A stretch of DNA of 64,000 nt from contig NZ_CP012382.1 of assembly GCF_001267885.1 (NCBI RefSeq), positions 930,001 to 994,000 on the forward strand, in the 5' to 3' direction. This document shows, piece after piece, positions 11,157-14,466 of this stretch. Numbering within the stretch: position 1 is the first letter of the stretch; every line of letters starts with the position of its first letter. The stretch comes from Streptomyces ambofaciens ATCC 23877. GTDB lineage: Bacteria > Actinomycetota > Actinomycetes > Streptomycetales > Streptomycetaceae. Made by a program: the position numbers and the translations under genes. The notes beneath the pieces are model-generated. The model had not been told where the DNA came from, did no database searches, and worked only from the letters and a program-made list of their open reading frames with translations.

Positions 11157-12215
11157 ATGACCACCACCGCACCTCATCCGCTCGTCGCCGGGGCCCGTCG
11201 GCTCGCGGACGGCCTGCTGGCCCCGTCCGCCCAGCACGTCGACCAGGACGTCGTGCCCGCGAGCCACATCGACGCCGTACGGCACTCGGGACTGCTGGGC
11301 GTGAGCGCGCCCGAGGAGTACGGCGGGGCGGGGGCCCCGGACCCGGTGGCCCGGGAGGTCGCGGAGATCCTGGCCGGGGCGTGCTGCTCCACCTGGTTCG
11401 TGCAGACCCAGCACCACACACCGGTCCGGCTGCTGACGAAGGCGGAGCCCGGACTCCCCGCCCGGGAACGCCTGCTGCGTCCGCTGGCGACCGGGGAACT
11501 GCTGGCCGGCATCGCCTACGCCCACGTCCGCTCCGCCTCCCGCACCCCGGTGCGGGCCGCCACCGAGCGGGGCGGCGTGCGCTTCGACGGCACCGTCCCC
11601 TGGTACACCGGCTGGGGTCTGAACGACGTGATGCTGCTCGCGGGCGTGACCGAGGCGGACGAGGTCGTGTTCGCCTTCGTCGACGCCCGCGAGCAGCCGG
11701 GACTGCGTCCTTCGCCGCCCCTGCGGCTCGCGGCGCTGACGGCCGCCCGCACGGTGTCCGTGAAGCTGGACGCCCTGTGGGTGCCAGGGGACGCCGTGGT
11801 GCTGCGCACCCCCCGCGAGGATTTCGCCCGCCTCGACCTGCCCCGCAGCACCAACACCTCGCCGGCCGTCTTCGGCGTGGCCCGCGCCGCGCTGGACCTG
11901 CTCGGCGACACACCGGACGAGCGGAGGACGGCCGACGCGCTGCGTGCCCGGCTCGACGAGGTCCGCACGCGGGCGTACGCCCTCGCGGACCATCCCGTCC
12001 CGCACGGACACGTCGAGGAACGGCTGGCGCTGCGGACCCGGGCGTACGACCTCCTGCGGGCGGCCACGGCGGCGGCGGTCGTCAGCGGCGGCGGACGCGC
12101 GACGAGCCTGGACAGCCCCGCCCAGCGGCTCGCCCGGGAGGGGATGTTCCTGCTGGTGCAGGGCCAGACGGCCCCGGTGCGCGAGGCGCATCTGGCCGCG
12201 CTGGCCGGCCTCTAG
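11157..12215 (+). CDS. acyl-CoA dehydrogenase-like flavoprotein (SfnB-like)
   Basis: 352 residues with the N-terminal helical and middle beta domains of acyl-CoA dehydrogenases and a C-terminal helical bundle. SHIDAVRHSGLLGVSAPEEYGGAG is the usual N-terminal helix pair and LFEVAR-like spacing appears in VFGVARAAL. Several relatives (SfnB, DszC-like) are FMN- or FAD-dependent monooxygenases or oxidoreductases used to desulfurise organic sulfur compounds. The neighbouring ssuD and FMN reductase make that role plausible, but it is inference. Its TAG stop shares the sequence CTAG with the stop of the convergent ssuD gene. Confidence 0.8.
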   Translation: MTTTAPHPLVAGARRLADGLLAPSAQHVDQDVVPASHIDAVRHSGLLGVSAPEEYGGAGAPDPVAREVAEILAGACCSTWFVQTQHHTPVRLLTKAEPGLPARERLLRPLATGELLAGIAYAHVRSASRTPVRAATERGGVRFDGTVPWYTGWGLNDVMLLAGVTEADEVVFAFVDAREQPGLRPSPPLRLAALTAARTVSVKLDALWVPGDAVVLRTPREDFARLDLPRSTNTSPAVFGVARAALDLLGDTPDERRTADALRARLDEVRTRAYALADHPVPHGHVEERLALRTRAYDLLRAATAAAVVSGGGRATSLDSPAQRLAREGMFLLVQGQTAPVREAHLAALAGL

Positions 12216-13354
12216 ACCGCGACCGGCACCGGCGCGCCCCGGTCCGCCTCCGCGCGCGCGGGATGGCTCCACAGGCCGCGTGCGGCGAGGCGGGGCAGGA
12301 CGCCCTCGCCGAACCAGTACGCCTCCTCCAGGTGCGGATATCCGGAGAGGACGAACTCGTCGATGCCGAGCGCGTGGTATTCCGCGATCCGGTCGGCGAC
12401 CTCGTCGTGGCTGCCGACCAGGGCGGTGCCCGCGCCGCCGCGCACCAGACCGATGCCCGCCCACAGATTGGGGTGGATCTCCAGGTCGCCACGGGCACCA
12501 CCGTGCAGGGCGAGCATCCGCCGCTGCCCCTCCGACTCGCTGCGGGCGAGGCCGGCCTGCACGGCCCGTACGGTGTCGGGGTCGAAGCCGTCGAGGAGGC
12601 GGTGCGCCTCCGTCCAGGCCGCCTCCGCGGTGTCCCGCGTGATGACGTGCAGCCGGATACCGAAGCGCAGGGTACGACCCTGCTCCGCGGCCAGCCCGCG
12701 CATCCAGGCGATCTTGCCGGCGACCTGCGCGGGCGGCTCCCCCCAGGTCAGGTACACGTCCACGTGCCGTGCGGCGACCTGCCCGGCGGCGGGCGAGGAG
12801 CCGCCGAAGTACACCTCGGGCACGGGGTCGGGCGTCCGGACCAGCTGCGCCTCCTCGACCTGGAGGTGCCGGCCGCTGAGGTTCACCGTGCCGCCCTCCC
12901 ACAACTCCCTGACGACCTGCAGGAACTCACCGGTACGACGGTAGCGGGCGTCCTTGTCCAGGAAGTCGCCGTAGGCCCGCTGTTCGCGGCTCTCGCCGCC
13001 CGTGACGACGTTGAGCAGGAGCCGTCCACCGGTCTGCCGCTGGAAGGTGGACGCCATCTGCGCGGCGAGCGTGGGCGAGAGGAGACCGGGCCGGAAGGCG
13101 ACGAGGAACTTCAGGCGCTCGGTCGCCTGGGAGACCATGGCGGTGGTCAGCCACGCGTCCTCGCACCAGGCACCGGTGGGCGTCAGCGCGCCGACGAAGC
13201 CGAGATCCTCGGCGGCACGGGCGATCTGGCTCAGATAGGCCACCGTCGGCGGCCGGTTGCGCCCCGAGTCGGTGGCCGGGGCACCGTGGCCACCGCCCAC
13301 GACGTCGCGACTGTCGCCGCTGGTGGGCAGGAACCAGTGGAAGGTGAGGGACAC
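12212..13354 (-). CDS. ssuD: FMNH2-dependent alkanesulfonate monooxygenase
   Basis: 380 residues, the length of E. coli SsuD, and recognisable throughout: FHWFLPTSGDSRD at the start, GALTPTGAWCEDAWL around residue 66 with the Cys of the SsuD active-site region, LTWGEPP, IRLHVITRDT, NLWAGIGLVRGGAGTALVG and LSGYPHLEEAY. The enzyme is a TIM-barrel luciferase-type monooxygenase that uses FMNH2 and O2 to release sulfite from alkanesulfonates during sulfur starvation. Reduced flavin would come from the reductase encoded just upstream. The GTG start at 13354 follows GGAG. The open frame further upstream is repeat sequence. A Tat or Sec signal is absent. Confidence 0.95.
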   Translation of the reverse strand: MSLTFHWFLPTSGDSRDVVGGGHGAPATDSGRNRPPTVAYLSQIARAAEDLGFVGALTPTGAWCEDAWLTTAMVSQATERLKFLVAFRPGLLSPTLAAQMASTFQRQTGGRLLLNVVTGGESREQRAYGDFLDKDARYRRTGEFLQVVRELWEGGTVNLSGRHLQVEEAQLVRTPDPVPEVYFGGSSPAAGQVAARHVDVYLTWGEPPAQVAGKIAWMRGLAAEQGRTLRFGIRLHVITRDTAEAAWTEAHRLLDGFDPDTVRAVQAGLARSESEGQRRMLALHGGARGDLEIHPNLWAGIGLVRGGAGTALVGSHDEVADRIAEYHALGIDEFVLSGYPHLEEAYWFGEGVLPRLAARGLWSHPARAEADRGAPVPVAV

Positions 13355-13531: not shown

Positions 13532-14095
13532 TCAGCCGGCCGCGGCCAGCACAGGTGCGTCGAAGCGGGTGCCGAGGACCGCCGAGAACTGGTCGACCAC
13601 TTGGGCGAGGGCCTCCTGCGCCCTCTCGGCGAGCACGACCGCACCGTCCTCCCGGCTCGTGATGTCCCGGTCGAGGGTGAACCAGCCCTGCACGATGTGC
13701 GCCGCGCCCATGGAGTTCAGCACCGGGCGGAGCGCGTAGTCGATCGCCAGGACATGGGCGGTGGTGCCCCCGGTGGCGAGCGGCAGCACCGTCTTGCCGG
13801 TGAGGGCGTACTGCGGGAGGAGATCGAGGAGGGCTTTCAGCACCCCGGAGTAGGACGCCTTGTAGACGGGGGTGCCGACGACGACACCTTCGGCGCGCGC
13901 GAACAGTGCGGTGGCCTCGACGATCGCGGGGTGCGCGAAGTCCGCGCGCAGCAGGGCCTCGGCGGGAAGGGTGCGCACGTCGAGCGTAAGCACCTCGTGG
14001 CCCTGCGCGGCCAGCCGGTCGTCCAGGTGGCGCAGCAGCCTGCTGGTGCGCGAGGAAGCGGAGGGACTGCCGGAGACGGACAGGACGGTGGCCAT
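13532..14095 (-). CDS. ssuE: NADPH-dependent FMN reductase (SsuE type)
   Basis: 187 residues of flavodoxin-like fold. The phosphate-binding loop SGSPSASSRTSRL lies at residues 8-20 and GTPVYKASYSGVLKALLDLLP, the flavin-binding and dimer segment, at about 95-115. The enzyme supplies FMNH2 to the ssuD monooxygenase encoded next. Gene order (reductase first, monooxygenase second) supports a two-component system. The ATG at 14095 has GAGGA five nt upstream. Between it and the leader peptide lie 250 bp of potential attenuator sequence. Confidence 0.9.
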   Translation of the reverse strand: MATVLSVSGSPSASSRTSRLLRHLDDRLAAQGHEVLTLDVRTLPAEALLRADFAHPAIVEATALFARAEGVVVGTPVYKASYSGVLKALLDLLPQYALTGKTVLPLATGGTTAHVLAIDYALRPVLNSMGAAHIVQGWFTLDRDITSREDGAVVLAERAQEALAQVVDQFSAVLGTRFDAPVLAAAG

Positions 14096-14265
14096 GGTTC
14101 CTCTTTTCGGGTGGGCGGGCGCGCGGCGCTCGCCGGCCGGACCCCCGGTGCCGCGCGGACACGAGGAATCCGGCGGTGCGCGACCACCGGTGGGGAGTAC
14201 GACGAGGGGGTGTGGGAGTGGAGGGGCACAGGGGACGGCCGCACGGCCGCACACGGGGCGTCAAC

Positions 14266-14340
14266 GGCCCCCGGGGGCCACGGAATTCAGGCGCGGGGAG
14301 GGCCCGCCTGCGCGGACGCCGGCCCCGAGCGGCGGCTCGG
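14266..14340 (-). promoter_or_regulatory. candidate attenuator structures between leader peptide and ssuE
   Basis: Five bases after the leader stop codon the RNA can form CCGAGC-GGCG-GCTCGG (14325-14340). Further downstream a 14-nt perfect palindrome GGCCCCCGGGGGCC sits at 14266-14279. These are the strongest hairpins in the 250 bp between the leader peptide and the reductase start and could be alternative terminator or anti-sequestering elements. Role inferred from position only. The remainder of 14096-14345 shows no gene. Confidence 0.4.
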
Positions 14341-14345
14341 CGGGC

Positions 14346-14429
14346 TCAGGCCGCGGCGCGACAGGCGGCGCTGGAGACGCGCGCGAGGTCGACGTGGCGT
14401 CGCCGCGTGAGGTCCGGTCGCGTTGTCAT
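14346..14429 (-). CDS. short Cys-containing leader peptide of the sulfur operon
   Basis: 27 residues: the core RRRHVDLARVSSAACR matches the conserved putative leader peptide found upstream of sulfur-assimilation genes in many actinobacteria, with a single Cys close to the end at residue 23. Such peptides are thought to sense cysteine supply by ribosome stalling and to control the genes downstream. Here it precedes the FMN reductase and ssuD genes. The start ATG lies only 7 nt after a good -10 box, so the peptide is probably translated from a leaderless mRNA. It is shorter than usual gene-calling cut-offs. Confidence 0.85.
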   Translation of the reverse strand: MTTRPDLTRRRHVDLARVSSAACRAAA

Positions 14430-14436
14430 ACCGGCG

Positions 14437-14466
14437 ATCGTCGCAGCCGACGTCGAGGAGGGTCAA
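14437..14466 (-). promoter_or_regulatory. promoter of the leader peptide / ssuE / ssuD transcript
   Basis: On the minus strand TTGACC (14466-14461) and GACGAT (14442-14437) are separated by 18 nt, a good vegetative sigma-70 match for Streptomyces. The -10 box ends 7 nt before the leader ATG, so transcription should begin at or next to the start codon. The region from 14467 to 14629 upstream shows no gene. Confidence 0.6.

Follow-up and report, generated by a model that had tools for sequence, protein, structure and literature searches.

The window, meaning the whole stretch of 64,000 nucleotides analysed here, carries upstream of ssuE a short leader which, on its sequence, is real and belongs to a known class; it is best explained, and probably so, as an NF042934-class cysteine attenuator, leaderless and read by the ribosome itself. 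The Cys codon at core position 18 is TGT in 132 of the 136 distinct cores that have Cys there, over many downstream genes, and because UGU is near-invariant at this place it supports, indirectly, the sensing of cysteine at the Cys codon, which is very probable. The leader class was known, and the UGU rule is apparently new here and unreported: it was not found in the literature searched, and Canestrari 2020 may mention it.

The ssu leader, its promoter and its family

The features of the locus are the following, all on the minus strand:
14461-14466, minus: -35-like TTGACC of the leader promoter
14437-14442, minus: -10-like GACGAT, a box conserved in relatives
14346-14429, minus: leader ORF of 27 codons, its start presumed to be the mRNA 5' end; matches NF042934 and is conserved upstream of SsuE
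14417-14421, minus: GCGAC, predicted pairing partner of GTCGC at 14358-14362 (RNAalifold, 16 orthologues)
14361-14363, minus: putative sensor codon TGT, Cys23, equal to core position 18
14096-14345, minus: untranslated spacer of 250 nt, possible Rho-loading region
14099-14105, minus: Shine-Dalgarno sequence of ssuE, AAGAGGA; GAGG/GAGA conserved in orthologues
13532-14095, minus: ssuE, NADPH-dependent FMN reductase (TIGR03567)
12212-13354, minus: ssuD-like FMNH2-dependent monooxygenase (below the NF001939 cut-off)

Regarding the leader itself, the frame encodes MTTRPDLTRRRHVDLARVSSAACRAAA followed by the stop, and its sole Cys is codon 23, near the end, just as the sequence-only reading of this DNA had described it; it scored 34 bits against the NCBIfam model NF042934 (cis_reg_atten; cut-off 27, E 1.6e-8), and 25.4 and 21.1 bits against the Cys-rich leader models NF042936 and NF042933, below their cut-offs of 45. 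SsuE reached 233.9 bits against TIGR03567 in the profile search (cut-off 164.05), and its ATG at 14095 lies 250 nt past the leader stop on the same strand, which bears out the earlier claim of a leader 250 bp ahead of an FMN reductase. The product of the next gene is SsuD-like, and falls under both alkanesulfonate-monooxygenase cut-offs (461.5 versus 518.2 bits, and 471.8 versus 510 with NF001939). A plus-strand frame resembling acyl-CoA dehydrogenases (11157-12215) converges on the ssuD-like gene and has a weak similarity to SfnB (52.5 bits, cut-off 430.9). Rfam gave no match at gathering scores within the window.

As for the conservation of this arrangement, 80 SsuE relatives were examined, with up to 2.5 kb upstream of each. 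The leader motif occurred upstream on the sense strand in 53 of these loci, so that the proposed check, conservation of the reading frame in related genomes, came out in its favour; it lay within 600 nt in 40 of them and, in the others, farther up, before a monooxygenase-like gene. In several of the remaining 27 the available stretch ends before the operon start, and absence is not implied. Counted over the whole SsuE loci, the motif had 56 sense-strand occurrences and one on the opposite strand. Among 54 ssu-type leaders, TTGAC was present in 50, with an 18-nt spacer to the -10-like box in 49; the box was CACGAT in 41, GACGAT in five, CAGGAT in two and GACCAT in two, with none fitting in four, and the first in-frame ATG followed it by 7 nt (47 leaders) or 6 nt (three), the other four being misfits. 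The window leader has the same geometry, with TTGACC 18 nt upstream of GACGAT and the latter 7 nt before the ATG; the "good" -10 box of the sequence-only reading is therefore confirmed in its spacing and its conservation in relatives, but not in its quality, given that an E. coli-type promoter scan did not call the window leader promoter. In a 16-orthologue alignment, conservation was high at the -35, at the -10 and from the ATG through the leader stop, and then dissolved until the Shine-Dalgarno sequence. Because promoter, ATG and peptide are conserved upstream of SsuE, leaderless translation of the ssu leader is a good inference; the idea of a leaderless cysteine leader of a sulfonate operon is well supported by these traits, by the NF042934 match and by the 11 copies in the genome, its start being a predicted one.

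These 11 places, all over the NF042934 cut-off in a profile search of the window genome, precede mostly sulfur-type genes. By their domains, five of the downstream genes fall among the sulfur enzymes (a cysteine dioxygenase, SsuE, a sulfite/nitrite reductase, a sulfatase and a rhodanese), four others fit as well (a cysteine-synthase-type PLP enzyme, two NMT1-type substrate-binding proteins and a molybdopterin oxidoreductase), and two, an SDF symporter and a GST-like protein, are unclear; downstream genes were clustered and named from Pfam scans of cluster representatives, except SsuE, which was named by its own profile match, and for five of the 11 (L001, L006, L007, L010 and L011) it was a cluster mate that showed the domain, and not the gene itself. 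A second sulfur island occupies contig positions 7883204-7890461, where another SsuE (75% identical) lies together with two more NF042934 leaders inside 8 kb. Beyond this genome, all 61 genomes sampled from the genus, presumably Streptomyces since the best SsuE relatives belong there, had matches (3 to 16 each), as did 181 of 296 genomes and 72 of 114 genera of a class-wide sample, where up to 29 candidates a genome were scored and the counts per genome are lower bounds, and nine of 119 genomes of a phylum sample. None of 14 control genomes had a match over the cut-off among the matches listed, and ten of them had sub-cut-off matches at E<=10; the window genome's own sub-cut-off loci, L012-L019, never entered the counts.

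The UGU codon and the conserved peptide

The near-fixed TGT stands at one position. Elsewhere in these leaders TGT spells 49 of 178 Cys codons (28%; Fisher p 8e-41 versus Cys18), and in sampled genes of the window genome 65 of 557 (11.7%); the share of T as third base is 0.97 at codon 18, compared with 0.01-0.16 at core codons 13-17 and the two codons that follow the core. When leaders were grouped by downstream cluster, 22 of the 25 clusters with Cys18 had TGT throughout, two had it mostly, and one, with a single member, had TGC; two more clusters were without Cys18. In other genera, 28 of 29 loci had Cys18 (L305 did not) and 27 of these used TGT, versus 34 of 201 Cys codons in neighbouring genes; many of these loci are close kin and seven of the 29 are shared with the main set. 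One of the four exceptions with a codon other than TGT, the L273 leader, has a near-repeated segment, CRCMSAICRCMSAPCRS, with TGC at core position 18. Shared ancestry of the codons alone is an unlikely cause of the UGU rule, as other synonymous sites in the leaders vary.

In leaders adjacent to ssuE, TGT occupies the sensor position in 38 of 38, and an Arg CGA near the leader start is equally fixed (38 of 38), although CGA makes up 2.7% of Arg codons. Over these 38 loci, seven of the 18 core codons are invariant, versus 20 of 96 conserved-residue codons of the ssuE gene itself (six of 74 for A, L, R, V, G, T, S and P); because of this difference, the ssu leaders carry an extra nucleotide constraint beyond the peptide, which is real and only partly explained.

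The peptide is conserved as well. In the 145 distinct cores, R5 is kept in 142, V, I or M at position 8 in 145, D9 in 144, L10 in 137, R12 in 145 (spelled by five different Arg codons) and C18 in 136, counts that are biased since the profile search favours such peptides, whereas it exerts no selection on the codons used. Within downstream-gene clusters pN/pS was 0.43. The 145 cores include seven loci of other genera, which also stand among the 29 mentioned above; these and related counts leave out two true leaders, L033 and L165, and also L184, which was below the cut-off, had no Cys and was judged a chance match, and which is likewise out of the other-genera set. Nine cores lack Cys18, namely eight leaders before GST-like genes (L011, L230, L239, L244, L257, L278, L280 and L282) and one other; the GST-gene leaders read RRHIDLxRVCSA or similar, with Ser or Gly at position 18, often as AGT or AGC, and these eight may respond to a different signal or be degenerating.

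With respect to decoding, the 72 tRNA matches in the genome include two tRNA-Cys genes, at contig positions 1649400 and 3139821, which share 31 of 74 positions in an ungapped comparison. Both have the anticodon GCA, and UGU is therefore read by wobble; by the same token, selective charging of different anticodons was rejected as a cause of the rule. That UGU is read more slowly is assumed, and a difference in charging between the two diverged tRNA-Cys genes could be relevant to cysteine sensing. In the theory of Elf and Ehrenberg, as far as the available part of the paper goes, many regulatory codons are stressed for sensitivity, the rare-codon idea is called an oversimplification, and rarity by itself is no full account of leader codon choice (PMC1183508).

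Candidate mechanism and its alternatives

In the proposed mechanism, the transcript would begin with the leader ATG or immediately beside it. With ample cysteine, the ribosome would read UGU, terminate at the nearby stop and leave the RNA; the C-rich, G-poor spacer would then be naked, and Rho could load on it and halt transcription before ssuE. Under a shortage of charged tRNA-Cys, it would pause at the one UGU codon, where the conserved segment RxHVDLxR of the nascent chain, lying in the exit tunnel, may help to hold it. Because Cys18 is at most five codons from the leader stop in 122 of 136 cores, the waiting ribosome would cover the leader end, and the operon would be expressed. A single control codon is unusual for an attenuator, and the chances that stalling is assisted by the conserved nascent peptide are about even.

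Regarding the output step, C exceeds G in the 120 nt after the leader stop by +0.188 on average (n=145), compared with +0.021 in 96 control upstream regions, which mix promoters and UTRs; the 11 leaders of the window genome differ from the control at p 1.7e-5. Along the leaders, the C-G value is +0.04-0.09 inside the leader, +0.24 just past it and then +0.12 to +0.19. The C-rich, G-poor spacer of a Rho-dependent attenuator is thus found on the class average, and is weaker in the first 120 nt of the window spacer (+0.07), whose best 60-nt stretch has +0.40, whose composition over 14096-14345 is C 0.48 and G 0.34 excluding the last 15 nt, and whose G-poor part, judged by eye, is at about 14189-14235. 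The genome has a Rho RNA-binding domain (PF07497) with 99.5 bits and a second match with 38.9 bits; they are located at contig positions 5409292 and 1028269, the latter being the weaker and 34 kb past the window end. Such composition resembles that of Rho-loading RNA, and makes Rho the likeliest output, at a little under even probability: a lead, not a result.

The sequence-only reading had instead drawn two hairpins between leader and ssuE as part of a possible attenuator, and GC-rich stems can indeed be drawn 3' of the leader. A classical attenuator with terminator and antiterminator is very improbable, because the 334-nt 5' RNA folds no better than its shuffles (z +1.20; 91 of 100 fold at least as well), nor do the 101 nt that begin shortly ahead of the Cys codon (z +0.75; 152 of 200 at least as stable), there are no terminator-like sites (0 found, 0.3 expected), and the spacer is not conserved and has no conserved hairpin in the orthologue alignment (RNAalifold; covariation term -0.21); a terminator with a competing antiterminator was not found, and the two hairpins are not supported beyond base composition. 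An unlikely alternative for the output, better placed than the hairpins, is translational attenuation, where leader RNA and spacer would hide the ssuE ribosome-binding site until stalling of a ribosome on the Cys codon exposes it. It is the experimental model in M. smegmatis, according to the passages of PMC13236596 and PMC9031893 on that species, and in model folds the Shine-Dalgarno sequence is mostly paired (mean unpaired 0.19); however, the spacer is not conserved, and a modelled ribosome at the Cys codon opened this sequence by more than +0.1 in one of 38 orthologues and changed it by less than -0.1 in six, in a fold model that has no power to exclude such release.

Two further explanations touch the UGU rule. 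The leader could act as an arrest peptide in the manner of TnaC, responding not to tRNA charging but to a small molecule, for instance cysteine itself or some other sulfur compound; the Cys residue would then matter and the codon would not. The conservation of R5, D9, L10, R12 and C18 with varying codons and the pN/pS within clusters speak for it, but a need for the residue only does not predict a preference for UGU, and both the small-molecule sensing and the indifference to the codon are improbable. The other explanation is that UGU is kept for RNA reasons, either because the leader pairs with itself or the spacer or because the codon region must be open. In its favour, ssu leaders can pair GCGAC with GUCGC, using the fixed CGA codon, and in the window GTCGC takes in the second and third base of the sensor codon; rhodanese-type leaders can pair GCGACAGG with UCUGUCGC in a longer helix; the bases of UGU have a slightly higher openness than those of a UGC variant (0.57/0.30/0.41 versus 0.49/0.26/0.35); and the invariant core codons of ssuE loci are more than peptide selection alone suggests. 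The GCGAC-GUCGC helix has almost no covariation across the 16 orthologues, though, and the mean helix score of 14.5 is a small pooled gain over the 14.1 (sd 0.26) obtained with permuted 5' segments; own 5' segments beat those of other clusters in ten of 24 cases and own downstream segments in nine of 16, and shuffled spacers give similar UGU opening. In certain leader classes pairing or openness may play a part, but on these models neither is a general account of the UGU rule, for which RNA reasons are a poor candidate.

Returning to the ribosome-read attenuator, its extension to the whole class is tentative and somewhat less probable than Rho as the output: the leaders of Actinomycetes may form one ribosome-directed sulfur regulon, in which a single, nearly obligatory UGU, six residues past the invariant Arg, replaces the Cys run, the nascent RxH[VI]DLxR primes the tunnel, wobble reading is the cysteine-sensitive step and Rho is the output. 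UGU at the sensor would be a plain example of selection acting on the choice of a codon, in a class that is present in every sampled genome of the genus and keeps this codon near-fixed although the window genome seldom uses it for Cys; the question whether codon or peptide senses cysteine reduces to a one-base test.

Comparison with known leaders

Canestrari 2020 is said to have demonstrated translational attenuation by experiment in the poly-Cys leaders of M. smegmatis. The window leader resembles the mycobacterial poly-Cys leaders (models NF042936 and NF042933) in a predicted leaderless arrangement, for which the promoter geometry fits, in the sulfur operons and in a related RRxVDL core; it differs in having one Cys codon and no run of them, and the ssu models gave no sign of Shine-Dalgarno release. 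Experimental work on the mycobacterial leaders is cited in passages of PMC13236596, PMC9094748 and PMC9031893. With the "putative leader peptide" NF042934, the likeness consists in a score over the curated cut-off, a Cys near the C-terminus and a place upstream of sulfur genes; no separating difference was found, in a profile that describes the peptide only and is silent on codon, promoter and output.

Among earlier predictions, the relevant sections of Seliverstov 2005 describe leaders of cys operons in Mycobacterium and P. acnes and of cbs in B. longum, and suggest Rho (PMC1262725); these leaders likewise have Cys codons near the stop and no conserved terminators, but they have runs of Cys codons, and those sections contain no account of cys leaders from Streptomyces. 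The uORFC-8-2 leader of cysS in Rhodobacterales is, in the portion of the source that covers it, also a short ORF that precedes a cysteine gene and whose Cys codons are conserved, and differs by its tandem Cys codons, the dominance of UGC and an intrinsic terminator (PMC8632094). For S. lividans, the attenuator table in PMC8079986 names, in its accessible part, no cysteine leader, and the peptide listed as "metL" contains Cys. Finally, in tnaC of E. coli, as outlined in part of PMC10941005, a stalled ribosome hides the adjacent rut site, so that the proposed ssu model shares with it a conserved nascent peptide and a stalled ribosome beside a Rho-loading spacer; tnaC, however, stalls at a stop codon with excess tryptophan, whereas the ssu leader would stall at a sense UGU under cysteine shortage.
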